NCBI GenBank assembly: GCA_029573975.1
Contig: JAKQBU010000428.1
Location: 1-18,184 of the forward strand
Direction of reading: 5' to 3'
DNA: 18,184 nt
From: Planctomycetota bacterium
Lineage (GTDB): Bacteria; Planctomycetota; Phycisphaerae; Sedimentisphaerales; SM23-30
A program made the translations under genes and the position numbers. Below, piece by piece: positions 2,859 through 16,698 of the stretch. How positions within the stretch are numbered: the stretch's first letter is position 1; each line of letters begins with the position of its first letter. Under the pieces are notes generated by a model. It was not told the DNA's origin, did no database searches, and saw only the letters and a program-made list of their open reading frames with translations.

Positions 2859-4016
2859 TTACCAGCAATCCTGTAAAATCTGCCGGATTTGCGGGGCGGT
2901 GATGTTTTTTCTTTCGCCCAGTACGAATTTTTGATTTTGAAAATATTGTACCACATTTTCCAGAGAATCTTTTTCAATCTGATAATCGCGCAGCCGGGTC
3001 GGCATATCCAAGGAATGGAAAAAATCGACTGTTCGGTCGATGGCAGCCCGGGCTTTCATTTCTTTGCTTTCGTTCCGAATATTCCAGATCCGGTCGGCAT
3101 ACTGGGCTAATTTATCGATTTTGTTCATGAGTTGATGTTTCCAGAGGGCGGGTAAAACCACGGCTATCGATTCGGCATGTGCCAGGCCGAAAAAAGCGGT
3201 CAATTCATGGCCGATATCATGCGAGGCAAAGTCCGCCACACCGCCGCAGCCAATCAGGCCGTTCAGGGCCTGGGTGGAACACCACATAAAACTGGCCCGC
3301 GCCTCGAAGTCAGGATTGTTTTCCTGAATCCGCGGGGCCAGTTCCAGCAGGGTCAGCAGGATCGCCTCGGCCTGCCGATCCTGAAGCGGTGTTTGCAATT
3401 CATAGGTAATATACTGCTCCAGGACATGGACAAAGGAATCGACAATGCCGTTGCGAAGCTGCTTTTGGGGCAAGGAATAGGTGGTTTCCGGATCCAGGAT
3501 GGAAAACCGGGGAAAGGTATGGGGACTGATGACGGTACGTTTTTCATGCAGGGCGGCGCGGGAGATGACCGAGCCGCAATTCATCTCCGAACCGGTGGCC
3601 GGCAGGGTCAGGACGCAGGCCAGGGGCAAGGCTCTTTGAATGATATCCCCGCGTGAAGTGCAGATTTCCCAGGGGTCCTTGCCCTCGTAACAGGCAGCCG
3701 CAGCGATAAATTTAGTTCCATCCACTACGGAACCACCACCGACCGCCAATAGGTAGTCCACGTGCTGTTTGCGGATCGAATCGACGGCCTGGAGACAGGT
3801 ATCATATTGCGGATTGGGTTCGATACCCGGAAACTCGACCAGGCAGTAATGTCTCAAGGCCTGGAGTACCTGATTATAAACACCATTGTGTTTGATGGAA
3901 CCGCCGCCATAGATCACCATGATTTTTTTGTCGGTCGGAATGAATTCCGAAAGTTTTGCAATGGAACCTTTGCCAAAAACCATCTGAACCGGATTGTAAT
4001 AGGTGAAATTATTCAT
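2859..4016 (-). CDS. yqhD: YqhD-type iron-containing NAD(P)-dependent alcohol/aldehyde dehydrogenase
   Basis: The 385-aa product matches E. coli YqhD along its length, which is close to the same size. Shared features are the start MNNF, FGKGSIA, YGGGS (residues 36-40), GIEPNP, AVGGGSVVDGTKFIAAA, LTLPATGSE and LNGLIG. The metal ligands expected from YqhD are present with a one-residue offset: D193, H197, H266 and H280. The family reduces short aldehydes to alcohols in the cytoplasm, usually with NADPH, and is often protective against reactive aldehydes. An AGGA ribosome site lies about 10 nt before the ATG. It follows dhaL by 25 nt and precedes the CotH gene by 6 nt. In this operon it probably reduces or detoxifies an aldehyde made from the unknown substrate; 4-hydroxybutyrate dehydrogenase activity is an alternative because that enzyme is also an iron ADH, but the sequence looks closer to YqhD. 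Confidence 0.93.
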   Translation of the reverse strand: MNNFTYYNPVQMVFGKGSIAKLSEFIPTDKKIMVIYGGGSIKHNGVYNQVLQALRHYCLVEFPGIEPNPQYDTCLQAVDSIRKQHVDYLLAVGGGSVVDGTKFIAAAACYEGKDPWEICTSRGDIIQRALPLACVLTLPATGSEMNCGSVISRAALHEKRTVISPHTFPRFSILDPETTYSLPQKQLRNGIVDSFVHVLEQYITYELQTPLQDRQAEAILLTLLELAPRIQENNPDFEARASFMWCSTQALNGLIGCGGVADFASHDIGHELTAFFGLAHAESIAVVLPALWKHQLMNKIDKLAQYADRIWNIRNESKEMKARAAIDRTVDFFHSLDMPTRLRDYQIEKDSLENVVQYFQNQKFVLGERKNITAPQIRQILQDCW

Positions 4017-4041
4017 AAGACGTTTTCCTGCAATGGTATAT

Positions 4042-4692
4042 TCATCCCGTTGTGGTAAAACTTTCCGAAAAACCCTGAAAAATCAGGGCGGTGGAGGTAG
4101 CGCCGGGATCGGCATGGCCGAGGGTACGGTCGCCGAGATTTCTGGCCCGGCCGAAGCGAGCCTGCATGTTTTTGGTAGCCTCCGCTCCCTGGGCGGCAGA
4201 AGCGGCGGCCTGCTGTAAGGCGGTCGGAATCGAAACGTTTTGTTCGATGGCGTTTTGAAAGGCTGCTACGGCTGGGACCAGGGCGTCGATCATGGTTTTA
4301 TCCCCGACTTTTGCCGCGGTAAGGGTACGCACCTGTTCGAGTCCACTGGTGAACATGGCGGCCATTTGTGTGCCGGCTATGGTCTGGCCATCGGTCAGCG
4401 ACTCGGCCATACCGGAAAAGAAACTGCCCATTAACGGGCCGGTAGAACCGCCATCAACGCCCATAACCGCCCAACCAATCTTTTCCAGCCGGTCTTTGAG
4501 CGGTTCCACCGGATACTCACGGATGGTCCGTTCGATCGACTGGGCCACCCGCAGCATGGCGGTTCCGTGGTCGCCATCCCCGGTAGCGGAATCGAGTTTC
4601 GAGAGATAGGCATGATGGGCCTTGATTTTCTCCACCGCACCCAGAATCATCCTGATCATCTGTTCGTTGGTACATGATTCATTCATATTCAT
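4042..4692 (-). CDS. dhaL: Dihydroxyacetone kinase nucleotide-binding subunit DhaL
   Basis: The 216-aa protein is a stand-alone DAK2-type subunit of normal length. The Mg-nucleotide site is intact: DSATGDGDHGT at residues 34-44, whose three aspartates D34, D39 and D41 match the metal-binding aspartates of DhaL. GGSTGPLMGSFF (near residue 80) and HADPGATSTALI (near the C-terminus) are the other family signatures. With DhaK it phosphorylates dihydroxyacetone or a related ketose. The start overlaps no gene and lies 12 nt after the dhaK stop; the ribosome site is weak (purine-rich GAAAAAG), so translational coupling to dhaK is likely. No DhaM phosphotransferase gene is visible, so whether this pair uses ATP directly or a PTS donor encoded elsewhere cannot be told from this window. 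Confidence 0.93.
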   Translation of the reverse strand: MNMNESCTNEQMIRMILGAVEKIKAHHAYLSKLDSATGDGDHGTAMLRVAQSIERTIREYPVEPLKDRLEKIGWAVMGVDGGSTGPLMGSFFSGMAESLTDGQTIAGTQMAAMFTSGLEQVRTLTAAKVGDKTMIDALVPAVAAFQNAIEQNVSIPTALQQAAASAAQGAEATKNMQARFGRARNLGDRTLGHADPGATSTALIFQGFSESFTTTG

Positions 4693-4704
4693 CTTTTTCG
4701 TATT

Positions 4705-5703
4705 TTATTGGACTGTATAGTACGGCGTATCACAGGGGGCATTCCAAAGAGACCAGAGTTCCTGGTCCATTTTCGCGGCGAACATCTGAAAGCCGGCCAT
4801 TTCCTGTACGGTCAGATATTCATCGATGCGGGCCACTACGTCGATTTTCTGCTCTTGAAGGAGACGATGGATACGACGGAAGATAATGAACAATTCCATT
4901 AAGGTGGTGGCGCCGGAGCCGTTGAGGAGCATGAGAAGGCTGTCGCCTTTTTGAGCTTTGACTGCTTTGAGCAGGCTGGGGAGCATGACCTCGGCGGTCT
5001 GATCGGCAGTCATCATCTTAGAGCGGCCGGTGCCCCCTTCCCCGTGCTGGCCCATGCCGATTTCCATTTCATCATCAGCCATCTCGAAGATGCTTTGTCC
5101 GGTGGAGGGATGGGTGGCGGTTTTTACGGCCACGGCCAGAGTAGCCATATTATTGTTGAATTTCTCTGCCACACGGTACACATCCTCCAGCGGCTGGCCG
5201 GCTTCGGCGGCGGCCCCGGCAATCTTGAACAGCGGCACGCAGCCCACTAGGCCGCGGCGGTCTTCCGGAGGGACATCGATGCCGGGGGCGATGTCTTCGT
5301 GGGTGAGAATCATTTTCACATGGAGACCTTCCTTTTTCGCCATCTGCATAGCAACGTTGGAGCTCATCACATCACCGGCATGGTTGAGAACGATGAACAG
5401 AACGCCCGCCGGGCGATTGGCCAGGCGAAGGGCTTCGATCACCTTGGGCGGTCCGGGGGCGGCGAAGATTTCGCCGACGACATTAATATCCAGCATGCCT
5501 TCGCCGACGAAACCGCCGGAGGCCGGCTCGTGGCCGGCACCGCCTAATGAGACGATGGCCACCTTATTTTTGTCTTTTGGTTTGGCCCGGGTCACCAGCT
5601 TATCGGAGAGGAGTTTTATTTTGTCGGCATAGGCCAGGGCAAAACCTTCCAGCAATTCTCTGGTCAGATCGGCCGGGTTGTTAATGAATTTTTTCATAAC
5701 CAT
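4705..5703 (-). CDS. dhaK: Dihydroxyacetone kinase substrate-binding subunit DhaK
   Basis: The 332-aa protein has the DAK1 fold signatures: GGAGHEPASGGFVGEGML around residues 54-71 (H58 is the second active-site histidine), GD at 110-111, and GQHGEGGTGR with H220 at the position of the histidine that forms the covalent hemiaminal with the ketone substrate. The binding-site stretch LNHAGDVMSSN differs from the E. coli form, which has a tyrosine and NF at comparable places, so the true substrate may be another ketose or ketone, for example erythrulose, rather than dihydroxyacetone. The start at 5703 is supported by AAAGGG 7-8 nt upstream; an in-frame ATG two codons later is possible. It sits directly before dhaL. 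Product phosphate esters would enter glycolysis as DHAP or be cleaved by the LsrF-like enzyme of operon B. Confidence 0.93.
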   Translation of the reverse strand: MVMKKFINNPADLTRELLEGFALAYADKIKLLSDKLVTRAKPKDKNKVAIVSLGGAGHEPASGGFVGEGMLDINVVGEIFAAPGPPKVIEALRLANRPAGVLFIVLNHAGDVMSSNVAMQMAKKEGLHVKMILTHEDIAPGIDVPPEDRRGLVGCVPLFKIAGAAAEAGQPLEDVYRVAEKFNNNMATLAVAVKTATHPSTGQSIFEMADDEMEIGMGQHGEGGTGRSKMMTADQTAEVMLPSLLKAVKAQKGDSLLMLLNGSGATTLMELFIIFRRIHRLLQEQKIDVVARIDEYLTVQEMAGFQMFAAKMDQELWSLWNAPCDTPYYTVQ

Positions 5704-5774
5704 ACAAGCACCCTTTACCTTGGGATTTCTGGTTTCAAGAAATTATTTCCACATCCATGCGGCAAACCGGTTTG

Positions 5775-6095
5775 TCATTCATCAAACTGCATCAGCTCGA
5801 TGGGGGCGCCATCTTCAGTCAGGATGAAGGCGGCCCGCATACCTTTAAAGGGGGAAAACGGCTCGATGATGACATTCTTGCCTTTTAGCTCTGCATCCAG
5901 ATCATCCACTTTGAAAGCGACATGGGCATATTTTTTGGTCACTTCCGGAACGGGGGAATCCGGTTCATGGCGGACCCATTCGACCCGGTAGGGATGCGTC
6001 TCGAAATCGGTGATATACGCCTTGGCATCGGGAATATAGGTCTCATTGTTGTGCTTTTCGGTCGTTACGATTCCTACATGATGGAACTCTCTCAT
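5775..6095 (-). CDS. Small VOC-superfamily protein (glyoxalase/epimerase-like)
   Basis: The 106-aa protein is a short single VOC module. HHVGIV at residues 5-10 is the typical first strand with metal ligand H6; YAHVAFKVDDLDAEL places a second ligand at H58; PIELMQF gives E100 as the last. E39 in VEWVRHEPDS may be the remaining ligand. VOC metalloenzymes include glyoxalase I, methylmalonyl-CoA epimerase and ring-cleaving dioxygenases, and normally pair two modules, so this one should dimerise. A clear AAGGAG site lies 6-7 nt before the ATG. It sits between the LarA-like gene and dhaK, which suggests isomerisation or epimerisation of a hydroxy-keto intermediate, but the reaction cannot be named from sequence. 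Confidence 0.85.
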   Translation of the reverse strand: MREFHHVGIVTTEKHNNETYIPDAKAYITDFETHPYRVEWVRHEPDSPVPEVTKKYAHVAFKVDDLDAELKGKNVIIEPFSPFKGMRAAFILTEDGAPIELMQFDE

Positions 6096-6132
6096 ACTAT
6101 TTCTCCTTATGAATTGATTATGGTTCTGATGA

Positions 6133-7410
6133 TTATATCATTTTCTGTAATTTCTGTACCGTACAGATCATTTTGGCACTTTTGTATAAGATATTGATGG
6201 TAGCGGAGGCGCCGTGATACTCCAGGGCATCTCGCAGGGCGGCGGCGGCATCCGGCGCCCAGCGAAAACCCATTGCGAGGGCATCTGCCCGGGAAATACC
6301 CCTGCTGACGAGGATCACGCGGGCTTTTTCCAGCAGTTTTCTTCCCAGATACATATTACCACCGACACATTTGTCCAACTGGCCGGAGGCGACCATCGCT
6401 CGAATCTTTTCCTCCGGCATATAACCGTAGGTAGTCAGCTCATGATGCTGACTGCTGGCACCTTCGGGACAGGGGGTGACAAGAATGACAGTTCCGCCTT
6501 TTTTCACAGTACCGCACGCGGCGTTTAGAGCCTTCAAAGCCTGCCAGAAATCCAAATCCGCCGGATAGGAATCGGCCAGAACGATATCCGTTTGTTCCCG
6601 TATCGGCACCAGACAAGTCCTTCGGGCGAACTCACAAGCCTGCCGGTGGGCCAGGATGGGATCCCCGGCAAAGGCGCCGGCGACTTGCCCATGACTGTCC
6701 GGTACATCATTCAGGATAAACTTCAGACCGGCCTTGATTCCGATTTCGTCTATCACCTTCCGCACCGCGTTATCCCGTACAGCAAAAAGCCCGTCTTCCG
6801 CTACCGTACTGCTGAGCCAGTGCATTTCCGCAATGGTAGAGCCATCCGCACAGCCGGGATTTATGATTTTGCAGCCGCCGCCAAAACCGGCGATCATGTG
6901 GGGAATGGTTTGTCCTACCCCAATGACAAAATCGGATTCCAAAATCGCCTTGTGAATGCGGATGTCAAAGCCTGCGCTGGAAGAACCGATGCTTTGATAG
7001 GATGCGCGATCCTGCCAATCGGGATTGATAAAGGAATACTTTTCAACAACCGGTGCCGTATATTTATCCTCCATTTCCCGGCGGCTCATCCGCCGATGCG
7101 TCCCCAAGGCAATCAGGATGCGAATGGCCCGGCGGGGAATCGCCGCGGCCGCCAGCTCCTGCAAAATCATCGGCAACATCAAGTCGGTCCGGGTGCTGCG
7201 GCTGCTATCGTCCACCGTGATAAGAATCTTCATGCCGGGCTTTACTGTATGGGAAAGCCTGGCACAGCCAATAGGCACTTCCAAAGCTGCCTGGATAATC
7301 TCAAGACTATCCAGCGCGTTCCCGCTATCCGGCAGGCGGTACACACCGGATATATTTGCATCTGGAACTTCGATCGAATCCAAACCGGCATAAGGAAACT
7401 GATGTCGCAT
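6133..7410 (-). CDS. LarA-family nickel-pincer racemase/epimerase (DUF2088)
   Basis: The 425-aa protein is the usual length for LarA. Key residues of lactate racemase fall here with a constant offset of minus 3: H105 in ALGTHRRMS (LarA H108), H171 in TIPHMIAGF (H174), K181 in GGGCKIINPG (K184, which tethers the nickel-pincer nucleotide) and H197 in AEMHWLS (H200, the nickel ligand). The phosphate-binding DDSSRSTR at 67-74 is also present. The family racemises or epimerises alpha-hydroxy acids by hydride transfer; many members are not lactate racemases. The larB, larC and larE cofactor genes are absent from the window and would have to lie elsewhere. It starts 19 nt after the cupin stop with only a weak ribosome site, so coupling is likely. 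Expected role: epimerising a sugar acid or hydroxy acid of the pathway. Confidence 0.9.
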   Translation of the reverse strand: MRHQFPYAGLDSIEVPDANISGVYRLPDSGNALDSLEIIQAALEVPIGCARLSHTVKPGMKILITVDDSSRSTRTDLMLPMILQELAAAAIPRRAIRILIALGTHRRMSRREMEDKYTAPVVEKYSFINPDWQDRASYQSIGSSSAGFDIRIHKAILESDFVIGVGQTIPHMIAGFGGGCKIINPGCADGSTIAEMHWLSSTVAEDGLFAVRDNAVRKVIDEIGIKAGLKFILNDVPDSHGQVAGAFAGDPILAHRQACEFARRTCLVPIREQTDIVLADSYPADLDFWQALKALNAACGTVKKGGTVILVTPCPEGASSQHHELTTYGYMPEEKIRAMVASGQLDKCVGGNMYLGRKLLEKARVILVSRGISRADALAMGFRWAPDAAAALRDALEYHGASATINILYKSAKMICTVQKLQKMI

Positions 7411-7429
7411 GGAAAACCACTAGAAGAAA

Positions 7430-7939
7430 TTATTCATCGACTTCCAGGTAGGTCGTACCCCATTGCCGTTGCCGCATTTCATAGATATCATTACCGCCGG
7501 GGGCGGGCTGACCGGGCCAGACGGTAATAAATTCAAAATCTTCCGTTTTGCTGAGATTTTTTACGGAATGAAAGGTATGAGCCGGGATAAAGACAATATC
7601 CCCTCTTTGGATAATATATTCCTTATAATCGAGATTGAGCAGGGCCTGGCCGTTAAAGGCAATGTAGATTTCATCGTGGGGGCCATGATCGCCGCCCGGC
7701 ACGCCACAGCCGGGCTTGAGCAGGCCATGATTGACCTGAAGCTTTTCCGATCCGGAGTTATAAACATCGATTAACATCCGGGAAACATACTCGCCGGTGG
7801 GATATTGCACTGGAAAGGGCTTAACTTTGGTAATCCGTACTACCTTACCTTTATGTTTTACTTCTGCAGCTGGCTGAACTCGTTCCAAACCTGTTTGGGT
7901 TTGTTTATCCCGTTTTTCATTTTTAGCTTTGATAACCAT
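7430..7939 (-). CDS. Single-domain cupin protein, first gene of operon A
   Basis: The 169-aa protein has about 60 residues of charged N-terminal sequence followed by one cupin barrel. The first cupin motif is PGGDHGPHDEIYIAFNG at residues 81-97, giving H85, H88 and E90 as likely metal ligands; the second is GDIVFIPAHTFHSVKN at 113-128, with H124 as the fourth ligand. Small cupins act as isomerases, epimerases, dioxygenases or ligand sensors, and similar ones occur in uronate and sugar-acid pathways; the reaction here is not recognisable. An AAGG ribosome site lies 7 nt before the ATG. It is transcribed from a strong promoter at 8022-7994 with an operator candidate at 7983-7971, and it leads the operon with the LarA-like gene. 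Confidence 0.88.
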   Translation of the reverse strand: MVIKAKNEKRDKQTQTGLERVQPAAEVKHKGKVVRITKVKPFPVQYPTGEYVSRMLIDVYNSGSEKLQVNHGLLKPGCGVPGGDHGPHDEIYIAFNGQALLNLDYKEYIIQRGDIVFIPAHTFHSVKNLSKTEDFEFITVWPGQPAPGGNDIYEMRQRQWGTTYLEVDE

Positions 7940-7970
7940 AATAAAACCTTAAAATATTTATAACACAATA

Positions 7971-7983
7971 CTTATCACATAGG
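7971..7983 (-). promoter_or_regulatory. Operator candidate OA, CCTATGTGATAAG
   Basis: This 13-bp near-palindrome (pattern C-N-TAT-GTG-ATA-N-G) lies over the transcription start region of operon A. A 19-bp stretch containing it (7971-7989) recurs without a mismatch at 15670-15688 ahead of the exported hydrolase, and a one-mismatch copy of the 13-mer lies ahead of operon B. The local GntR protein is the natural candidate to bind it. Confidence 0.72.
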
Positions 7984-7993
7984 ATATATGTTA

Positions 7994-8022
7994 AGTATAT
8001 TGGAATATTTTTAAGGTGTCAA
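7994..8022 (-). promoter_or_regulatory. Sigma-70-type promoter of operon A
   Basis: Read on the minus strand, TTGACA (8022-8017) is followed after exactly 17 bp by TATACT (7999-7994), an almost consensus promoter. Transcription would start near 7987, giving a leader of about 48 nt before the cupin ATG. The operator candidate begins 10 nt after the -10 box, overlapping the expected start point, as expected for repression. Confidence 0.85.
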
Positions 8023-8177
8023 CACAAAAGCAGACCAGAAAGAAATTTCACCATCAAAGTTAATATAAGTCATTATTAAATATGATATTATGAATAATAA
8101 GTATTTTATATATTGCCATTTGTTGAGCTTTTCTCTTAGGTGGTTTTCGGGGTAAAAAGTAATTTTGAAATTTCTTA

Positions 8178-8206
8178 TTGACCCAACATCGAGAAACGAA
8201 TAGGAT
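8178..8206 (+). promoter_or_regulatory. Sigma-70-type promoter of operon B
   Basis: TTGACC (8178-8183) and TAGGAT (8201-8206) are separated by exactly 17 bp. The predicted start near 8213 leaves a leader of about 130 nt before the ATG at 8344. The spacing to the operator copy matches the operon A promoter exactly, which supports both calls. Confidence 0.75.
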
Positions 8207-8216
8207 GGTTTTATAA

Positions 8217-8229
8217 CCTATGTGTTAAG
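8217..8229 (+). promoter_or_regulatory. Operator candidate OB, CCTATGTGTTAAG
   Basis: This site differs from the operon A copy at one of 13 positions and starts exactly 10 nt after the -10 box, as there. Here the palindrome extends outward: ATAAC at 8213-8217 pairs with GTTAT at 8229-8233, giving a 21-bp imperfect dyad, which fits binding by a dimeric winged-helix repressor. Confidence 0.72.
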
Positions 8230-8343
8230 TTATGAGTGCTGTTGTAAATTTTAGATTTAATAGATTGTCAGATAACCATGTAACAATGCCGAGTGCCAGC
8301 AAACACCTTACAGGAATCTGACGGATCGGCTAAGGAGGTATTC

Positions 8344-9225
8344 ATGCCAGGCGAAGATACGAGTCAGAAAGAGAAGGAATTTTTTGTAGATATTCCCCAG
8401 CAGACACCGGGATTTTTTCTGAAAGGGGCGGGCCATCTGGAATGGGGAATGAAATATCGGCTGGCCCGAATTTTCAATCCGAAAACCGGTCGCACCGTGA
8501 TGATTGCCATAGATCACGGGTATGTGCAAGGCCCCACCACCGGTTTGGAGCGTATTGATCTGACCATCGTACCGCTCATGCCGTTTGCCGACGCGTTAAT
8601 GCTCACCCGCGGGATTCTGCGGACAGTGGTCCCCCCCACTCTCGGCAAACCGGTGGTGATGCGCTGCAGCGGCGGGCCCAGCATATTAAAGGAAATGTCG
8701 GATGAGGAAATTGCCGTGGATATCGAAGATGCCATCCGGATGGATGTGGCGGCATTGACCTGTCAGGTGTTTATCGGTGGAATCCACGAAACCCGCACGG
8801 TTAATAACATGGCCAAACTGATTAATACCGGCCTTCGTTATGGTATCCCAACCCTGGCGGTGACCGCCGTCGGCAAAGAAATGGTACGTGATGCCAAATA
8901 TCTCCGGCTGGCCTGCCGGATTTGCGCGGAGCTAGGGGCGCATTTTGTAAAGACCTATTATGTCCCGGAAGATTTTGAAACCATCGTGGCTTCCTGTCCG
9001 GTACCGCTGATTATGGCCGGAGGCAAGAAACTGCCGGAGCTGGAGGCCCTGACCATGGCCTACCGGGCAATCCAGGAAGGCGCGGCCGGGGTGGATATGG
9101 GACGAAATATATTTCAGAGTGAATCCCCCCAGGCCATGATACAGGCGATCGGTAAGGTCGTTCATGAAAACATGAAACCCAAAGATGCCTTTGATTATTA
9201 CCAGACCATGAAAAATAAATCCTGA
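8344..9225 (+). CDS. lsrF: LsrF-family class I aldolase / acyl-CoA-forming thiolase
   Basis: The 293-aa protein strongly resembles E. coli LsrF, sharing LKGxGxLx[25 protein letters not shown], VGKx[13 protein letters not shown] and DMGRNIFQS stretches with almost no length difference. K203 (FVKTYYV) matches the active-site lysine and H58 the conserved DHGY histidine. LsrF transfers the acetyl unit of phosphorylated 3-hydroxypentane-2,4-dione to CoA, giving DHAP and acetyl-CoA. No lsrABCD, lsrK, lsrG or luxS gene is here, so an autoinducer-2 role is unlikely; a related phospho-ketone made by DhaKL is an alternative substrate. The start at 8344 is fixed by AAGGAGGT at 8332-8339; an upstream GTG at 8293 has no ribosome site. 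It leads operon B. Confidence 0.88.
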
Positions 9226-9290
9226 ATCCCCAGGGACAGGAGTATCGGTTTGATTCATTTGTAAATCATGCTGCATAAGGAGAGCCATTT

Positions 9291-10364
9291 GTGTCTAAAC
9301 TGAACGTAGGAATTATCGGTGTGGGGCATATATCGGCCATGCATTACGAAGGGTATAATAAGGAAACAAGTCCGGGCCGACTGTACGCAATCGCGGATGT
9401 CGATCCCAAGCGGCTGGAGCAGCGGAAAGCCGAATGGAAAGTTGAAAAAGCGTATCTCGACTACCGGGATTTGCTAAAAGATCCGAAGGTGGAGGCGGTC
9501 GAAGTGATTGTTCCTCATAATTTACATGCGAAAATCGGAGTAGATACCCTGGAGGCTGGCAAACCGCTTTCCCTGCAAAAACCGATGGCCATGACCGTAG
9601 CCGAATGCGATGCGATCATCAATGCCTCGAAACGAAGCGGTACCATGCTGCGGGTCTTCGAGAATTTCCGGTATTATCCGCCGCTGGTCAAGGCGATGGA
9701 GCTTTTGCAGGCCGGGGAGATCGGCGATCCGCTTTCCATGCGGATGAAAGTAACGCTGGGTTCACTCAAAGGGTGGGATGTACAGGATGAGATGATGATC
9801 TGGCGTTACGACCCGGCCCGCTGCGGCGGAGGACGGGTCATCTTCGATTACGGTTATCACCTGTTTTCGGTGGCGATGTGGCTGATGGGAGATGTGGAGA
9901 AGGTACATGCCTGGATCACCTATCGTCCCACCAAATATGGAATTATCGACAGTCCCGTCGTAGTGACCTGGAAGTACAAAAATGCGGAAAAATACGGCAC
10001 CTACGAAGCCATCACGTCCGGGGATATGCTGGTCCGGTCCAAGTATTTCCCGGAAGACGAATGGTTTGAAATCACCGGCCGCCGCGGTTTTATCTGGGTG
10101 AACCGCTGTTCTTCCATGCTGCTGGACCGGCCACCGGTGGTGATGTACCGGGATGGAGTAACCACCGAATTTTCCAATCTGGATACCGATTGGGGCACCA
10201 GCTTTATCCTGGGAGTACACGACTTTGTCCATGCGGTCCGGGACGGCCGGCAGGCGGATTTGACCGGCGAGGAAGGCAAGCGGGTACATCAGTTCTGCCG
10301 GGCAATTCAGCGGTCCGCCAAGGAAGGGCGGGAAGTGAAGCTGGACGAAATTACGTCAGACTGA
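9291..10364 (+). CDS. Gfo/Idh/MocA-family NAD(P)-dependent sugar oxidoreductase
   Basis: The 357-aa protein has an N-terminal Rossmann domain (VGIIGVGHISAMHYEG, residues 6-21), DVDPKRLE after strand 2, and the family lysine K97 in LQKPMAMT. The family motif is usually EKP; here it is QKP. The C-terminal half carries GGGRVIFDYGYHLFSVAMWLMG (residues 179-200) with D186 and H190 at the positions of the catalytic Asp and His. Such enzymes oxidise a hydroxyl of a sugar, inositol or glycoside with NAD(P) in the cytoplasm. Translation starts at GTG 9291, supported by AAGGAG at 9277-9282. It follows the LsrF-like gene by 65 nt in operon B, consistent with oxidising the sugar-like substrate to a keto compound before phosphorylation or cleavage. 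Substrate unknown. Confidence 0.9.
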   Translation: MSKLNVGIIGVGHISAMHYEGYNKETSPGRLYAIADVDPKRLEQRKAEWKVEKAYLDYRDLLKDPKVEAVEVIVPHNLHAKIGVDTLEAGKPLSLQKPMAMTVAECDAIINASKRSGTMLRVFENFRYYPPLVKAMELLQAGEIGDPLSMRMKVTLGSLKGWDVQDEMMIWRYDPARCGGGRVIFDYGYHLFSVAMWLMGDVEKVHAWITYRPTKYGIIDSPVVVTWKYKNAEKYGTYEAITSGDMLVRSKYFPEDEWFEITGRRGFIWVNRCSSMLLDRPPVVMYRDGVTTEFSNLDTDWGTSFILGVHDFVHAVRDGRQADLTGEEGKRVHQFCRAIQRSAKEGREVKLDEITSD

Positions 10365-10408
10365 TTTTCTACATTATACTCTAAGCGAGCCAGACAGGAA
10401 GAAAAGAC

Positions 10409-11905
10409 ATGGTTGTTTCCCCAAAAGCCAAAAATAAATTGATGACCGGTGAAGAATACCGGCAGAGTCTGCGAAATCGAAAATCGCTTACTGTCTATTT
10501 AAATGGTGAGAAAATCGAAAATGTGGTGGACCACCCGATTGTGAAATTGTCCATCAATTCGGTGGCCTTGACCTATGATCTGGCTCACGACCCACAGTAT
10601 CGCGATCTGGCCACCGCGCAATCCGCCCTGACCGGCAACACCATCAACCGGTTTTGCCATTTGCATCAAAGTATCGACGACCTGATGAAAAAGGTCAAAC
10701 TGCAGCGGGTTCTGGGGCGGCTGACCGGAACCTGTTTTCAGCGTTGCGTGGGAATGGATTCTTTAAACGCCACGTACATAACCACTTATGAAATCGACAA
10801 AAAACACCAAACCGACTACCATCGGCGTTTTCGAGATTATATGCTTCAGGTAGAAGAAAATGATTGGACGATTGACGGGTGCATGACCGATGTCAAAGGG
10901 GACCGCAGCAAGCGTCCCGCGGATCAGGCGGACCCGGATCTGTATGTGCGGGTGGTGGAACGCAGAAAAGACGGGATTGTCATTCGGGGCGCCAAGGCCC
11001 ATCAGACCGGGGCCATCAATTCGCATGAGCATTTGCTGATGCCTACGATCATGATGCGGCCGGAAGATAAGGATTACGCCCTCTGTTGCGCGGTACCGGC
11101 AGAAGCCGGGGGAATCACTTATATTTACGGCCGGCAGGCTTCCGACCTGCGCAAGCTGGATGCGTCGCCGGAAGGGAAAATCGACTGCGGCAACAGTTGT
11201 TACGGGGGGCAGGAATGCCTGGTTATTTTCGATGATGTTTTCGTACCCGCCGAACGGGTGTTCATGGATGGGGAATACGATTTCACCTCCCTGCTGGTGG
11301 AGTGTTTTGCCGGATATCACCGGCAAAGCTACGGCGGGTGCAAGGTGGGCGTGGGTGATGTGATGATCGGGGCCGCCGCCGCCATAGCCGATTACAACGG
11401 CGTCAAAAACGCCTCGCATGTGAAGGATAAGATTATCGAAATGTGCCACTTGAACGAAACCATGTTCTCCTGCGGGATTGCCTGTTCCGCCCAGGGGGCC
11501 AGGACCGGCTCCGGGGTATATCTGATCGATATTCTGCTGGCGAACATCTGCAAACAGAATGTGACCCGGTTCCCGTACGAGATCGCCCGCCTGCTCCAGG
11601 ATATTGCCGGCGGCCTGATGGTCACCGCCCCTTCCGCCAAGGACTGGCGGGATCCCCAGGTCCGGGCGTATCTGGAGAAATATCTGGTTGGCGGGGAAGG
11701 GATTTCGATGGAAAACCGGATGAAACTAATGCGGCTGATTGAGAATATGACGATCGGGTCTTCCGCGGTGGGATATCTGGTCGAATCTCTGCATGGGGCT
11801 GGTTCCCCCCAGGCCCAGCGAATTATGATCGGCCGCCTGTCGAACCTGGAAGACAAGAAAAAACTGGCTAAAAAGCTGGCACAAATTCAAGAGAATGACA
11901 AATAA
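10409..11905 (+). CDS. abfD: 4-hydroxybutyryl-CoA dehydratase (FAD and [4Fe-4S])
   Basis: The 498-aa protein belongs to the HpaB/AbfD flavin family and resembles the clostridial 4-hydroxybutyryl-CoA dehydratase. All four cluster ligands are seen: C109 and C113 in TGTCFQRCVGMD, H304 and C311 in AGYHRQSYGGCKVG, with the expected spacings of 4 and 7. These cysteines are absent from the hydroxylases of the family, so this is a dehydratase and not HpaB. The enzyme dehydrates 4-hydroxybutyryl-CoA to crotonyl-CoA by a ketyl-radical mechanism and also isomerises vinylacetyl-CoA; it is oxygen-sensitive. AGGAAG lies 7 nt before the ATG. The crotonase, dehydrogenase and thiolase that take crotonyl-CoA to acetyl-CoA follow in the same operon. 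No 4-hydroxybutyrate CoA transferase or ligase is present in the window. Confidence 0.93.
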   Translation: MVVSPKAKNKLMTGEEYRQSLRNRKSLTVYLNGEKIENVVDHPIVKLSINSVALTYDLAHDPQYRDLATAQSALTGNTINRFCHLHQSIDDLMKKVKLQRVLGRLTGTCFQRCVGMDSLNATYITTYEIDKKHQTDYHRRFRDYMLQVEENDWTIDGCMTDVKGDRSKRPADQADPDLYVRVVERRKDGIVIRGAKAHQTGAINSHEHLLMPTIMMRPEDKDYALCCAVPAEAGGITYIYGRQASDLRKLDASPEGKIDCGNSCYGGQECLVIFDDVFVPAERVFMDGEYDFTSLLVECFAGYHRQSYGGCKVGVGDVMIGAAAAIADYNGVKNASHVKDKIIEMCHLNETMFSCGIACSAQGARTGSGVYLIDILLANICKQNVTRFPYEIARLLQDIAGGLMVTAPSAKDWRDPQVRAYLEKYLVGGEGISMENRMKLMRLIENMTIGSSAVGYLVESLHGAGSPQAQRIMIGRLSNLEDKKKLAKKLAQIQENDK

Positions 11906-11921
11906 AGAGTAAGGTTGGCAA

Positions 11922-13103
11922 ATGAGAAAGGTATTTGTTATCGCCGCGAAACGAACCGCTATCGGAACGTTCGACGGAAATCTGAAAATCGTCAGCGCTG
12001 TGGATATGGCGGCGGCCGTAGCCAGAGAGTTGATTGCGGAAAGCGGTATCGACGCTGGGACTATCGAGGAAGTGATATTCGGCAATGTGTTATCTGCCGG
12101 CCTGGGACAGAATGTAAGCCGGCAGACCGCCATCCAGGCCGGCCTGAGTGCTGAAATTCCCGCCTTCACCGTGAACAAAGTTTGTGCCTCCGGCATGAAG
12201 GCCGTACAACTGGCCTTTCAAGCGATTGCCTGCGGGGAGGCAGAGGTAATTCTGGCCGGGGGGACGGAAAATATGAACCAGGCTCCCTATCTGGTTCCCG
12301 GCGCCCGCTTCGGCTTGCGGATGAATGACGCTCCGCTGGTCGATTCCATGGTGAAAGACGGGTTGTGGTGTGCTCTCAACGACTATCATATGGGTATAAC
12401 GGCGGAAAACCTGGCGGAAAAATATCATATTTCCCGCCGGCAGCAGGATGAATTTTCCGTCCAGAGCCAGCAGAAGACCGCCCAGGCCCTGGCCGGCGGG
12501 GCCTTTGCCGAGGAAATCGTTGCGGTCCCGGTTAAAAATCGCAAGGAAACCATCGAATTTAAAACCGATGAACATCCCCGCCCGGACACGACGCTGGAGG
12601 TGCTGGCCAAGCTCAAACCCGCTTTCCGGAAAGATGGAACGGTCACCGCCGGCAATTCCTCTGGTATTAATGACGGGGCGGCAGCGCTGCTGCTGGCCGG
12701 CGAAGATGTGATCCGGGAGAAAAACCTGACGCCACTGGCGGAGCTGATCGGCTTTGCCTCTGCCGGTGTTGATCCGGCCATTATGGGAATCGGCCCCGCC
12801 GCCGCCATCCCCAAAGTATGCCGCCAAACCGGTATCCGCCTGGATGCGATCGATCTTTTTGAATTGAACGAAGCCTTTGCCGCTCAATCCCTGGCGGTAC
12901 TGCAGGAAACCGGAATCGACCGGGCCAAAGTTAATGTCAACGGCGGTGCCATCGCTCTGGGGCACCCCATCGGGGCCTCCGGCGCCCGGATTCTGGTTAC
13001 GCTGTTACATGCGCTGCGAAAACGAAATCGAAAAACCGGTCTGGCTTCCCTGTGCGTCGGCGGCGGCATGGGCATGGCCTGTATAGTAAAAAGGAGTGAT
13101 TAG
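11922..13103 (+). CDS. atoB: Acetyl-CoA acetyltransferase (thiolase II)
   Basis: The 393-aa protein has the full thiolase signature set: nucleophile C88 in VNKVCASGMKAV, NEAFAAQ at 316-322, H348 in GGAIALGHPIGASGAR and C378 in CVGGGMG. Length and motifs fit the biosynthetic/degradative acetoacetyl-CoA thiolase. In this operon it should cleave acetoacetyl-CoA with CoA to two acetyl-CoA, the last step after hbd and the crotonase; the reverse direction is chemically possible. It begins 16 nt after the dehydratase stop with AAGG 7 nt upstream of the ATG. The gene is separated from hbd by only three bases. Confidence 0.95.
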   Translation: MRKVFVIAAKRTAIGTFDGNLKIVSAVDMAAAVARELIAESGIDAGTIEEVIFGNVLSAGLGQNVSRQTAIQAGLSAEIPAFTVNKVCASGMKAVQLAFQAIACGEAEVILAGGTENMNQAPYLVPGARFGLRMNDAPLVDSMVKDGLWCALNDYHMGITAENLAEKYHISRRQQDEFSVQSQQKTAQALAGGAFAEEIVAVPVKNRKETIEFKTDEHPRPDTTLEVLAKLKPAFRKDGTVTAGNSSGINDGAAALLLAGEDVIREKNLTPLAELIGFASAGVDPAIMGIGPAAAIPKVCRQTGIRLDAIDLFELNEAFAAQSLAVLQETGIDRAKVNVNGGAIALGHPIGASGARILVTLLHALRKRNRKTGLASLCVGGGMGMACIVKRSD

Positions 13104-13106
13104 ACC

Positions 13107-13976
13107 ATGGAAATCCAAGAAGTAACCGTCATCGGGGCCGGGACCATGGGGGCCGGAATTGCCTCCGCCGTACTATCCGCCGGTTTTACCGTGCATATGG
13201 TTGATATCACCGAAGACCTTCTGGCCAAAGGGAAAAAGAGTGTGGAGAAAATCCTGGCACGCAGCATCGAAAAAGAAAAAATGACAGAAGCCGAGCGAGC
13301 CAAAGCCCTGCGGAACATTCATTATGGCACCGATTTGACCGCCGCCTCTTCCAGCCAGTTGGTAATCGAAGCGGCGACGGAAAACCGGGAGGTAAAAACC
13401 AAACTATTTGCCCTGCTTGCCGGTATAATCTCCCCGCAAGCCATTCTTGCCTCGAATACCTCGGCGCTAAAAATCAGCGAACTGGCGGAATCGGCATCCG
13501 CGCCGGAACAAGTAATCGGCATGCATTTTTTCAATCCGGTCCCCGCCATGAAACTGGTGGAACTGGTGAAAACCCCGGCCACCTCCCCACAAACCTTTGA
13601 ACAGGCCCGGCAGTTTGTCCTGAAACTGGGCAAGGAACCGGTGACGGTCAATCAGTCGCCCGGTTTTATCGTGAATCGCCTGCTGATTCCCATGATTAAT
13701 GAAGCAGCCTGCCTGTTCGGCGATGGGATTGCCTCCGCGGAGGATATCGACAAAGCCATGCAGCTCGGGGCCAATCACCCCCTCGGTCCTCTGACGCTGG
13801 CCGATTTAATCGGCCTGGATGTGTGCCTGGCCATTATGGAAACGCTGCAAGCGCAGCTCAAATCCGCCAAATACCAGCCCGCACCCGTCCTGCAGAAACT
13901 GGTGCGGGAAGGTAAACTCGGCAAAAAAACCGGTTCCGGTTTTCATGCCTATCCCCCAGAGGGCCGCAAATCATGA
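13107..13976 (+). CDS. hbd: 3-hydroxybutyryl-CoA dehydrogenase
   Basis: The 289-aa protein has the NAD(P)-binding start VIGAGTMGAGIA (residues 8-19) and the family active site: S117 in SNTSA, H140 in GMHFFNPVPAMKLVE with partner E152, and N190 in PGFIVNRLL. Length is typical of stand-alone short-chain Hbd, with no fused hydratase domain. It interconverts 3-hydroxybutyryl-CoA and acetoacetyl-CoA. AAGGAG at 13091-13096 lies 10 nt before the ATG. Its TGA overlaps the ATG of the crotonase gene by 4 nt (ATGA), indicating coupled translation. Confidence 0.95.
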   Translation: MEIQEVTVIGAGTMGAGIASAVLSAGFTVHMVDITEDLLAKGKKSVEKILARSIEKEKMTEAERAKALRNIHYGTDLTAASSSQLVIEAATENREVKTKLFALLAGIISPQAILASNTSALKISELAESASAPEQVIGMHFFNPVPAMKLVELVKTPATSPQTFEQARQFVLKLGKEPVTVNQSPGFIVNRLLIPMINEAACLFGDGIASAEDIDKAMQLGANHPLGPLTLADLIGLDVCLAIMETLQAQLKSAKYQPAPVLQKLVREGKLGKKTGSGFHAYPPEGRKS

Positions 13977-14746
13977 ACTATTTTCTGCTGGAACAAAACG
14001 ACCATATTGCCATCGTAACGATGAATCAGCCGCAGGTCCTCAACAGCTTCAGCATGGAGGTCCAGAAGGAATTTCTGTCGCTGCTGGAGGATTTGGAAAA
14101 CACTCCTTCCCTACAGGGTCTGATTATTACCGGAGCCGGCAAGGCCTTTGCTGCCGGCGCCGATATCAAACAGATGGCAAATATGAATGCCGGGGAGGCC
14201 CTGGAATTTTCCCGGCTGGGCAACCGGGTCTTCGACAAAATCGAGAATTTCAAAGCCGTTACTGCCGCCGCCATCAACGGCACGGCACTGGGCGGCGGCT
14301 GCGAACTGGCCCTGGCCTGCGATTACCGCCTCGCCGCCGTGGAAGCCAAGCTGGGCCAGCCGGAGATCAACCTGGGTATCATCCCCGGCTGGGGCGGCTG
14401 CCGAAGATTGGCCCGTCTGGTGGGATTTCCTACCGCCCGCGACCTGGTTTTAGGCGGGAAAATCATCACCAGCACGGAAGCTTTGGTCCTGAAACTGGTG
14501 GATCAGGTGGTGGATAAAACCAACTTAATCGAAACCGCCGTCAACCTCATGCAAAATCTACTTAAAAATTCGCCCCTTATCCTGCGTTATGCCAAAGAGG
14601 CTTTGCAAGCCGGCCATAGGCTCCCCCCCGATCAGGCGGCCCAGAAAGAACAGGAACTGTTCAGCCGGTGTTTCCAAACCGAAGACCAGAAGGAAGGTAT
14701 GAAGGCCTTTCTCGAAAAAAGAAAACCGGACTTTCAAGGCCGCTAA
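13973..14746 (+). CDS. crt: Crotonase / enoyl-CoA hydratase
   Basis: The 257-aa protein is a standard crotonase. The oxyanion-hole stretch AAGADIKQM (residues 60-68) and GTALGGGCELALACD are present, and both catalytic glutamates are retained: E111 in GGCELA and E131 in GQPEINLGIIPG. It should hydrate crotonyl-CoA from the dehydratase to 3-hydroxybutyryl-CoA for Hbd. It is the last gene of operon B. Only 26 nt separate its stop from the end of the convergent exported hydrolase gene, and no terminator hairpin could be recognised there. Confidence 0.94.
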   Translation: MNYFLLEQNDHIAIVTMNQPQVLNSFSMEVQKEFLSLLEDLENTPSLQGLIITGAGKAFAAGADIKQMANMNAGEALEFSRLGNRVFDKIENFKAVTAAAINGTALGGGCELALACDYRLAAVEAKLGQPEINLGIIPGWGGCRRLARLVGFPTARDLVLGGKIITSTEALVLKLVDQVVDKTNLIETAVNLMQNLLKNSPLILRYAKEALQAGHRLPPDQAAQKEQELFSRCFQTEDQKEGMKAFLEKRKPDFQGR

Positions 14747-14772
14747 TCCCATCACCGGATAACATGTTGTAG

Positions 14773-15636
14773 TTACTGGCCTGCCTGAACTGGTGAGTCC
14801 TTCGGTTCCGATGCGCGCGGCGGCAGATCCATGATAAATTCGAGCATCGCCCGGGCATCCTCATAACTGGTCCCGTGGCCTTCGTTTTCCCGATAGAAAA
14901 ACAGGACCTTTCGTTTCATTTTTTGCAATACCCTGGCCAGCCGGGTCACGCTGTGCGGCGGAACCGCACCATCCTGGCCGCCCACCGACAACCCGATGGG
15001 CATGATAATATTTTCCGGCCAGTATTCGGCACTGCGATTTTTATATTCAAGGGGGATGTCCTCTTTCGTACCTTCAAATCCCTTCTGGATATACTCCTGA
15101 TAATTTTCATATTCCAGATAGTTGGCTGTGCCGTTCATGCTCATTACCCCATCGAACAAATACGGATGCCGGGCCGCCAGAGTCAATACGGCCGAGCCGC
15201 CCATCGACCCTCCGGCAATAAAAACCTTGTTAATAAGATACTGTCGTTGCAAATCAACCAGAATCTGCAGGGTGTCCGCCTCTCCCTTGGGTCCCATCCA
15301 CTGATCAATCCGATAATCGGGTGTCACCACAATCAAATTATTTTCGGCGGCAATTTCATAAATCGCCTGACTCGGCCCGTGATCCCGCAGCTCATACAAC
15401 TGCCAGCGATCCCCGTACATACCATGAAACATCAACAGTAAATCATGCCGCTTTTCCGGATTAAAGTTTTCAGGGAGAAGGATAGCATATTTTTGTTCCG
15501 TCCCGTCACATTTAGCCTGAAACGATACCTCCTTCCAGTGCGATTTATCCAGACCCCACAGAGACTTCTCTTCCGCCAGCAGTGAATGCCACGGCAGCAC
15601 CAACAGGAAATACCCGATAACCAACGTTTTTTTCAT
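14773..15636 (-). CDS. Exported alpha/beta-hydrolase (esterase-like)
   Basis: The 287-aa protein begins with a signal peptide (MKKTLVIGYFLLVLPWHSLLA, cleavage near residue 21) and has an esterase D / polyhydroxybutyrate-depolymerase-like fold. The oxyanion region is LLLMFHGMYGD (67-76); the nucleophile elbow is GGSMGG with S144; D222 (GGQDGAVPP) and H254 (NEGHGTS) complete the triad. It probably deacylates a polysaccharide or oligosaccharide outside the cytoplasm, for example removing acetyl or aromatic esters; the substrate is not recognisable. TAGGAGAA lies about 6 nt before the ATG. A copy of the 13-bp operator lies 33 nt upstream, tying it to operons A and B, so it may release the compound that those operons degrade. 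Confidence 0.88.
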   Translation of the reverse strand: MKKTLVIGYFLLVLPWHSLLAEEKSLWGLDKSHWKEVSFQAKCDGTEQKYAILLPENFNPEKRHDLLLMFHGMYGDRWQLYELRDHGPSQAIYEIAAENNLIVVTPDYRIDQWMGPKGEADTLQILVDLQRQYLINKVFIAGGSMGGSAVLTLAARHPYLFDGVMSMNGTANYLEYENYQEYIQKGFEGTKEDIPLEYKNRSAEYWPENIIMPIGLSVGGQDGAVPPHSVTRLARVLQKMKRKVLFFYRENEGHGTSYEDARAMLEFIMDLPPRASEPKDSPVQAGQ

Positions 15637-15669
15637 GTTATTCTCCTACAAAGGCTCACTAAGTTATAT

Positions 15670-15682
15670 CTTATCACATAGG
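15670..15682 (-). promoter_or_regulatory. Operator candidate OC, CCTATGTGATAAG
   Basis: The 13-mer is identical to the operon A copy, and identity extends over 19 bp (15670-15688). It lies 33 nt before the hydrolase ATG, compared with 31 nt for the cupin. No good -10 box sits 10 nt upstream here (CGCGTT), so the promoter geometry differs; AATATA at 15691-15686 with TTCTTA 17 bp upstream is a weak possibility. Confidence 0.66.
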
Positions 15683-15749
15683 ATATATATTCAACGCGAT
15701 AATGTTAATAAGAAATATAAAACCGGCGTTGGGAGTTTAGAATTTGTAT

Positions 15750-15777
15750 TTGACATATAATTAAGAGGTGTTATTTT
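15750..15777 (+). promoter_or_regulatory. Promoter of the GntR-family regulator gene
   Basis: TTGACA (15750-15755) and TATTTT (15772-15777) are separated by 16 bp on the plus strand. Transcription would start near 15784 and give an 80-90 nt leader before the ATG at 15868. Confidence 0.65.
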
Positions 15778-15787
15778 ACACCTTCAA

Positions 15788-15804
15788 TCCAAAGGATAAG
15801 TTAT
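15788..15804 (+). promoter_or_regulatory. Weak operator copy at the regulator's own promoter
   Basis: The 13-mer TCCAAAGGATAAG (15788-15800) matches CCTATGTGATAAG at 8 of 13 positions, including all six of the right arm GATAAG, and it continues with TTAT as in the operon B site. It begins 10 nt after the -10 box, the same offset as at operons A and B. A second partial match, ATAACCTAT at 15828-15836, is identical to the left half of the operon B site. Autoregulation is inferred. Confidence 0.4.
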
Positions 15805-15867
15805 AAAACTTAGGTAGTTTGGTAAAAATAACCTATCTCAGACCGGTTGAGGAGTAATGATTATAAG

Positions 15868-16698
15868 ATGTTAGACGATGCTGAATCCAATAAACTGACA
15901 GCGGAAAATAAGCCTCATGACTTTCTCAAACAGATTGTTCATTCAGAAACCTTGCCTGCAAACAGTACAAAACCCCAAATAAAACGAAAAAATATCGGGC
16001 CGCTGGATGAACCCAAAAGAGCGGAACGAATCGTTCCGGAATTGATAAAATATATCCAAAATCACAAGCTGGTTCCCGGCAGTAAACTTCCTTCCCAGCG
16101 CGAGTTATGTGAACTTTTACGGGTGGGAGCCAATTCGCTGCGGGAGGCTTTGTTTACCCTTCAGACCATTGGTCTGGTACAGTCCCGGCAGGGGGCGGGC
16201 TGGTTCGTGGGGAAGTTTGATCCGGTGGGTAGTTTGAAATTTCTTACCCCCATCCTGGAAACCTATACCGATACCAATGCCGAGATTATCATTGAAACCC
16301 GCATGGCCATCGAACCGGTTTTTGCCCGCCGAGCGGCGGAATATATCACCGAAGAAGGTCTGGCCAAATTAGAGCAAATCAACCATAAAATGGTGGAAGC
16401 TGCCGAACAGAAGAATTTCGAAACGTTCCGGGAATGTGATAAGTCGTTCCATGTGGTTTTGGCCCAGGAATCCCGCAGCGGGATTTTGTGTGTGCTGGGA
16501 TCATTGCTAAATAATCTATTTTTCTCCTATTGGACCCCTTTGTGCGTTGATTATGATTTACCCACCCGAACTCACGATGACCTGCTGAAAGCATTACGCG
16601 CACGGGATTCCCATCAGGCGGAAAAATACATGATTGAACATATTGAAACCGCCAGGACCTTTTTGACAAAAATTCGCAATAGGCTGGAAGAGGTTTAA
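15868..16698 (+). CDS. FadR-subfamily GntR transcriptional regulator
   Basis: From ATG 15868 the protein has 276 aa. Residues about 50-116 form the GntR winged helix (GSKLPSQRELCELLRVGANSLREAL-type motif, then a QSRQGAGWFV wing). Residues about 135-270 form an FCD ligand-binding domain; D191 and H195 (ECDKSFH), H236 (RTHDDLL) and H258 (EHIETA) fit its metal site, which binds organic acids or sugar acids. About 48 residues precede the winged helix, a longer N-terminal tail than usual. The start is not certain: GAGGAG at 15849-15854 lies 13 nt before this ATG, and a TTG at 15847 in frame has no ribosome site of its own. It is divergent from the exported hydrolase and is the likely repressor acting on the CCTATGTGWTAAG sites. 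Confidence 0.88.
   Translation: MLDDAESNKLTAENKPHDFLKQIVHSETLPANSTKPQIKRKNIGPLDEPKRAERIVPELIKYIQNHKLVPGSKLPSQRELCELLRVGANSLREALFTLQTIGLVQSRQGAGWFVGKFDPVGSLKFLTPILETYTDTNAEIIIETRMAIEPVFARRAAEYITEEGLAKLEQINHKMVEAAEQKNFETFRECDKSFHVVLAQESRSGILCVLGSLLNNLFFSYWTPLCVDYDLPTRTHDDLLKALRARDSHQAEKYMIEHIETARTFLTKIRNRLEEV

Follow-up and report, generated by a model that had tools for sequence, protein, structure and literature searches.

The window analysed here is an 18,184-bp stretch, positions 1–18,184 of contig JAKQBU010000428.1 (assembly GCA_029573975.1), from a bacterium of the phylum Planctomycetota. It includes two divergent intergenic regions, 7940–8343 and 15637–15867. A 13-bp core sequence, CCTATGTGWTAAG, is found there in three exact copies, which are designated sites A, B, and C and are described below as candidate operators. 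The first region lies between two putative operons, also called A and B, and the second lies between a hydrolase gene and the gene for a regulator of the GntR family. The genes and candidate sites are as follows.

2859–7939, minus strand: putative operon A, based on the gene layout; cupin, LarA-like, VOC-like, DhaK, DhaL, and YqhD-like Fe alcohol dehydrogenase
8344–14746, plus strand: putative operon B, based on the gene layout; LsrF-like, Gfo/Idh, 4-hydroxybutyryl-CoA dehydratase-like, thiolase, 3-hydroxyacyl-CoA dehydrogenase, and crotonase
14773–15636, minus strand: alpha/beta hydrolase (esterase-like) behind site C, assigned by library scans
15868–16698, plus strand: GntR/FCD regulator, the putative binder; Pfam GntR and FCD are above cut-off
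7967–7987, minus strand: operator candidate A, with the core at 7983–7971 inside a 19-bp repeat (7971–7989); its 21-bp dyad is imperfect, and 7971–7995 forms an alternative 25-bp dyad
8213–8233, plus strand: operator candidate B, with the core at 8217–8229; inverted repeat ATAAC-CTATGTGTTAA-GTTAT
15666–15686, minus strand: operator candidate C, with the core at 15682–15670 inside a 19-bp repeat (15670–15688); inverted repeat ATATC-CTATGTGATAA-GATAT

Three exact copies of a 13-bp core

The three copies are confined to the two intergenic regions, which together make up 635 of the 18184 bp and are both ~70% A+T. Each copy is located upstream of the next gene and in the same orientation. These next genes are the cupin gene for A (starting from 7939, minus strand), the LsrF-like aldolase gene for B, and the hydrolase gene for C (starting from 15636, minus strand). 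For the LsrF-like gene there are two possible starts, GTG 8293 and ATG 8344, the latter preceded by a good ribosome site. From the core to the start codon, the distance is 31 nt at A, 33 nt at C, and 114 nt at B (to ATG 8344). Both the copies, with A and C in an exact 19-bp repeat, and their placement upstream of co-oriented genes had been proposed in a first-pass annotation of this DNA, and the window scan agrees with it on both points.

No copies of the core with one or two mismatches were found in the scan of the window, while eight further matches have three mismatches. The total at up to three mismatches is thus 11 against 5.18 expected, and at least 11 were reached in 6/200 shuffles. The 19-bp repeat shared by A and C is the longest exact repeat in the window, the runner-up being 14 bp. 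A repeat of at least 19 bp appeared somewhere in 8/300 segment-wise shuffles of the whole window, a lax count in which overlapping inverted copies were admitted. The length of the repeat alone is therefore not decisive.

The two intergenic regions were also shuffled by themselves. A match of at least 19 bp between the regions was seen in 0/3000 shuffles, with a maximum of 17 bp, and a triple comparable to A, B, and C was likewise seen in 0/3000. Because of these two counts, the element is taken as real. The existence of a shared cis element at three promoters, which marks a local regulon as the first-pass annotation had suggested, is well supported. In the literature, nine papers contain one of four letter strings of the motif, and their titles point to human, animal, or parasite work.

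Inverted repeat and promoter positions

The element can be written as a 21-bp imperfect inverted repeat, ATAWC-CTATGTGWTAA-GWTAT. When all centres are scored, the repeat is clear in B and C, whose dyads are centred on the same base, and poor in A, where the outer right arm is one base out of register by eye. One arm pair covaries between the sites: it is T-A in C and A-T in B, with both sides changed. In a test designed after the dyad had been seen, 12-nt flanks were shuffled round the fixed core in 3000 trials. The score observed for B and C together was reached in 0/3000 trials, that of C alone in 33, and that of B alone in 315. The 13-bp operator unit proposed earlier stands as a core, and the 21-bp imperfect inverted repeat of B and C is the better description of the operator.

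Two other descriptions of the shared element were rejected. A 25-bp inverted repeat at A (7971–7995, 9/11 arm pairs by eye), which was the first model, is absent from B, and 404/3000 shuffles match the best score of A. CRP sites are made of the halves TGTGA and TCACA, and the halves seen here are oriented wrongly for a CRP-type site.

The promoter-like sequences and related features around the sites are as follows.

7994–8022, minus strand: promoter of operon A, TTGACA-17-TATACT (11/12); the -10 ends 10 nt before the core
8178–8206, plus strand: promoter-like sequence of operon B, TTGACC-17-TAGGAT (9/12); the -10 ends 10 nt before the core
15680–15708, minus strand: weak promoter-like match, TTAACA-17-TATCCT (9/12), that extends into site C
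15750–15777, plus strand: promoter of the GntR gene, TTGACA-16-TATTTT (10/12)
15788–15800, plus strand: weak site D, with five mismatches to the core, sharing GATAAG and the 10-nt gap; its sequence is at background level
15766–15783, no strand assigned: AGGTGT-N6-ACACCT, an inverted repeat that covers the -10 box of the GntR promoter; a possible alternative site of autoregulation, with weak evidence

At A and B, the core starts 10 nt after the -10 box of a 17-bp-spaced promoter, as claimed in the first-pass annotation. A promoter of at least 9/12 at exactly 10 nt was obtained with shuffled flanks (2000 trials) in 1.25% for A, 0.2% for B, 0.55% for C, and 0.65% for D. Promoter-like matches in the whole window number 23 against 17.9 expected (standard deviation 4.2). 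They are hardly in excess, so only the promoter of A (11/12) is convincing by itself.

Site D had been regarded as a weaker copy with the same offset at the GntR promoter. The 10-nt gap is confirmed, behind a promoter with 16-bp spacing. The sequence of the site does not stand out: besides C, ten 13-mers of the region 15637–15867 have up to five mismatches to the core, D included, and one of them has four. Autoregulation of the GntR gene through D, suggested only by the spacing and the common GATAAG, may or may not occur. The repeat AGGTGT-N6-ACACCT is within chance, being seen in 54/1000 shuffles when at least three G/C per arm are demanded, and arms of the same length turn up in 205/300 shuffles of 200 nt. 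A perfect inverted repeat, TAAGTT-ATAA-AACTTA, is also found at 15797–15812, just behind the GntR promoter; it overlaps site D, and its A/T-richness makes its significance uncertain.

The GntR/FCD protein and its relatives

The protein encoded at 15868–16698 has a GntR winged helix at the N-terminus (PF00392, 58.9 bits, cut-off 27) and an FCD domain at the C-terminus (PF07729, 75.8 bits, cut-off 24.3), and thus belongs to the FadR/FCD subfamily of the GntR family. The Pfam scan of 16 window proteins shows no regulator besides it, and its gene is oriented divergently to the hydrolase gene behind site C. In an alignment of 17 sequences, D191 and H195 do not vary, and H236 is nearly invariant (one piece, L086, ends before H236). 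These may be the Asp/His residues of the FCD ligand/metal pocket. The nearest NCBIfam model is NanR, with a score of 96.3 against a cut-off of 260, and NanR (6on4) is third among 22 PDB matches. The protein is rare in the protein search, which listed 52 entries: apart from the window's own protein (P0001), there are four relatives at 66–89%, among them P0002 (89%) and P0003 (77%), and one at 39%, the others being at 38% or below.

NanR of Escherichia coli, the repressor of sialic acid genes, is also an FCD-type GntR protein, and both proteins have an N-terminal extension. In the accessible part of PMC8012715, the NanR operator is placed downstream of the polymerase site. To that extent, the position behind the promoter at A and B is similar. 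NanR binds GGTATA repeats, whereas the sites in the window are single inverted repeats. Exact GGTATA is not present in either intergenic region on either strand, and no sialic acid enzyme is named among the window proteins in the Pfam and NCBIfam scans.

Based on the accessible part of PMC4494728, the common operator of the FadR subfamily is TKGT-N2/3-ACMA, and the exceptions include NanR and BioR. As far as that part goes, the window protein resembles FadR, LldR, GlcC, and PdhR in its domains, and one group described there has divergons in which each operon has its own nearby site, similar to the layout here. Unlike the operators of these four regulators, the candidate operator in the window fits TKGT-N2/3-ACMA neither in sequence nor in half-site spacing. 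The same source gives TTATMKATAA as the sites of BioR, an example of a subfamily member whose A/T-rich sites depart from the common consensus; the BioR site is shorter than the one here and has another sequence. In the whole window, TKGT-N2/3-ACMA is matched once, at 10524, within a gene. The intergenic regions contain a single GT-N2/3-AC, at 8013; it shares bases with the -35 of A and has no connection with the sites.

The scan of genome contigs for the GntR protein found five loci, the best at 47%, and the scan of viral contigs found none. The closest GntR protein in the searched genome collections (locus L001; 47% in the best segment, 45% overall) is from the Planctomycetota metagenome-assembled genome UR.bin216. 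It is encoded at a different locus, beside a sulfatase/LTA-synthase-like gene, judged from the translation. The genome carrying L001 (G001) contains at least eight members of the GntR/FCD subfamily (L001, L003, and L083–L088; 8 of 27 candidates were scored), and their recognition-helix residues differ. GntR matches at E ≤ 1e-15 are seen in 27/297 relatives of G001, with 4.8e-59 as the best outside G001, and 397 genomes drawn from the class gave three matches at E ≤ 1e-35, all already seen. The searches of genome contigs, viral contigs, the 297 relatives, and the 397 genomes of the class returned no orthologous promoter; the orthologues at 66–89% exist as proteins.

The upstream stretches of 12 GntR genes, including the one in the window, were compared. 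The GntR promoter of L001, TTGACA-17-GATAAT, has three copies of CAATAAG behind it, at 2062, 2082, and 2102 (2062–2108), exactly 20 bp apart. Such a triple occurred in 5/5000 shuffles, and a further 10-nt repeat of L001 occurred in 11/300. In L087, a paralog in the same genome, TTGTAGCATATG is present twice with 39-bp spacing, the copies lying 116 and 77 nt upstream of the start of the GntR gene. The first copy begins 7 nt after the -10, and the pair was seen in 0/300 shuffles. An inverted repeat of L087 was reached in 62/300 shuffles, and the direct and inverted repeats of L085 in 33 and 26/300. For L081, the counts depend on the start chosen: 23 or 265/300 for the direct repeat and 105 or 235/300 for the inverted repeat. 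The repeats of the remaining stretches were reached by at least one third of shuffles. TKGT-N2/3-ACMA is found in none of the 12 stretches, with L081 taken from both starts. As L001 and L087 show, some members of this subfamily have repeats close to the promoter and behind its -10, and it is possible that the subfamily has promoter-proximal operators with private sequences. Separately, L084 contains a long inverted repeat centred on GAGCATATGCTC, ~245 nt before the start of its GntR paralog.

Neighbouring genes were surveyed in 40 stretches round GntR relatives. LarA relatives (39–41%) are divergent from the GntR gene in 2/40, which come from two genomes (L063, 8367–10451; L069, 7666–10320), and another stretch has a LarA relative (32%) ~7 kb away. 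In a third genome, a cupin relative (59%) lies ~1 kb downstream of the GntR gene (L065, 9470–11442), and one of the 40 stretches contains Gfo/Idh relatives (22–32%). These neighbours weakly support a link between such GntR/FCD regulators and LarA, cupin, and Gfo/Idh enzymes. Searches that started from the enzymes gave the following. An LsrF relative at E ≤ 1e-40 is seen in 67/297 relatives. Of the stretches round 19 of these 67, several of which are on contigs as short as 3.6–5.2 kb, one (L130) has other genes of the window, DhaK and DhaL at 32–34%, and the other 18 have no other window gene at E ≤ 1e-8. Relatives of the 4-hydroxybutyryl-CoA dehydratase-like protein at E ≤ 1e-60 are present in 3/297 genomes. 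The cupin search returned one protein at 96% and others at up to 63%, without context.

A candidate operator and the alternatives

The most likely interpretation is a local GntR regulon of an ordinary kind whose operator is non-canonical. The element is probably the operator of a transcription factor, with the 13-bp core as the strongly conserved part of a 21-bp imperfect inverted repeat. Directly downstream of the -10 at A and B, a bound protein would cover the transcription start. The GntR/FCD protein would then repress operon A, operon B, and the hydrolase gene, and an intermediate of the catabolic pathway might bind the FCD domain and release the repressor. The local protein, the only regulator seen and encoded beside site C, is the best guess for the binder of A, B, and C. 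We put the probability that the element is the operator of the local GntR/FCD repressor over these two operons and the hydrolase gene at roughly 0.6.

Several observations weigh against this interpretation. Site C is without the promoter geometry of A and B: its sole 9/12 promoter-like match runs into the site (gap -3), and a pair of 8/12 matches lies at a gap of 31. The first-pass annotation had considered three copies with a fixed geometry to be hard to obtain by chance, and this is right for the copies, while the geometry applies to A and B and fails at C. The dyad is poor in A; its score was reached by 404 of the 3000 flank shuffles for A alone, 281 for A and B, 516 for A and C, and 26 for all three. 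The best dyad centre for A, for A and B, and for A and C also differs from the common centre. TKGT-N2/3-ACMA is absent from 7940–8343 and 15637–15867. The contact positions of the GntR protein, in an alignment to FadR by eye, are Arg28, Ala38, Asn39, Ser40, and Gly59, and in the accessible part of PMC4494728 most of these are tied to the classical motif, which counts somewhat against the protein as the binder. The GntR promoter of L001 does not contain CCTATGTGWTAAG at up to three mismatches. Finally, a repeat reached by fewer than 5% of shuffles is present only in L001 and L087 of the 12 upstream stretches (3/12 with the earliest start of L081).

Some of these facts would fit a real operator whose regulator is encoded elsewhere, such as a paralogous GntR protein or a factor responding to a shared substrate, with the local GntR protein using, for example, AGGTGT-N6-ACACCT. 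The motif is unlike the FadR-subfamily consensus, the GntR promoter itself has no good copy, and the organism may have several subfamily members, as the related genome G001 has at least eight. However, site C is in the divergent region of the GntR gene, no other regulator is seen among the 16 scanned proteins, and the AGGTGT repeat is within chance by the counts given above. This possibility is thus considered clearly less probable than control by the local protein.

The constant sense orientation and the position just behind the promoter at A and B could also be expected of a general promoter or leader element of the lineage, one that is not specific to a pathway. The counts in other genomes make this improbable: in G001, the 13-mer at up to two mismatches has 44 matches and its backward-read control 111, and in 148 relatives of G001, an 18-mer at up to two mismatches has 59 matches in 44 genomes (the best with one mismatch) against 73 for the control. 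In G001 and these relatives, which may not be close to the organism of the window, the element does not form a general part of promoters. A riboswitch or RNA-protein site in the 5' leader would likewise have the same sense at all three sites, and the distances from core to start codon at A (31 nt) and C (33 nt) would suit it. The 114 nt at B would not, the predicted folding of the three leaders is no better than that of shuffled sequences (z scores 1.51, 0.56, and -0.17), and the window has no Rfam match at gathering score, so that an RNA element is rated as still less probable. The high A+T content of both regions might favour chance, or a non-functional duplication that arose locally and recently. 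This is the least credible reading of all, given 0/3000 intergenic shuffles and the existence of a third copy whose two arms have changed in step.

The genes behind A, B, and C are likely to form one joint catabolic programme. The LsrF-like thiolase/aldolase is above the NCBIfam cut-off (481.7 against 297; PDB match 3gkf), and one protein of operon B is related to 4-hydroxybutyryl-CoA dehydratase/vinylacetyl-CoA isomerase (PDB match 1u8v). The gene set of 2859–14746, in which LarA-like, DhaK, DhaL, YqhD-like, LsrF-like, Gfo/Idh, and 4-hydroxybutyryl-CoA dehydratase-like proteins are combined with thiolase, 3-hydroxyacyl-CoA dehydrogenase, and crotonase, possibly represents an undescribed catabolic pathway. 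Next to it, at 3–2852 on the minus strand, is a gene for a large protein with CotH-kinase and LTD domains, which extends past the edge of the window; near its start there is a repeat that we take, by eye, to be dockerin-like. This repeat and the Planctomycetota origin of L001 both point to that phylum for the window.

It can be speculated, though only tentatively, that the expanded FCD-GntR subfamily of this lineage diversified its recognition helix and came to use private and non-canonical operators just behind the -10 of its targets. The 21-bp operator described here would then control the undescribed LarA-like/DhaKL/LsrF-like/4-hydroxybutyryl-CoA dehydratase-like pathway.

If the local GntR/FCD protein is the binder, the FadR/FCD subfamily would gain a non-canonical site, and this in a phylum on which the 12 papers listed by a literature search (of 470 matches) include, by title, no dedicated study. 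The operator would also join two divergent operons and a hydrolase gene, and would thereby help to assign a pathway that is not matched to known ones.

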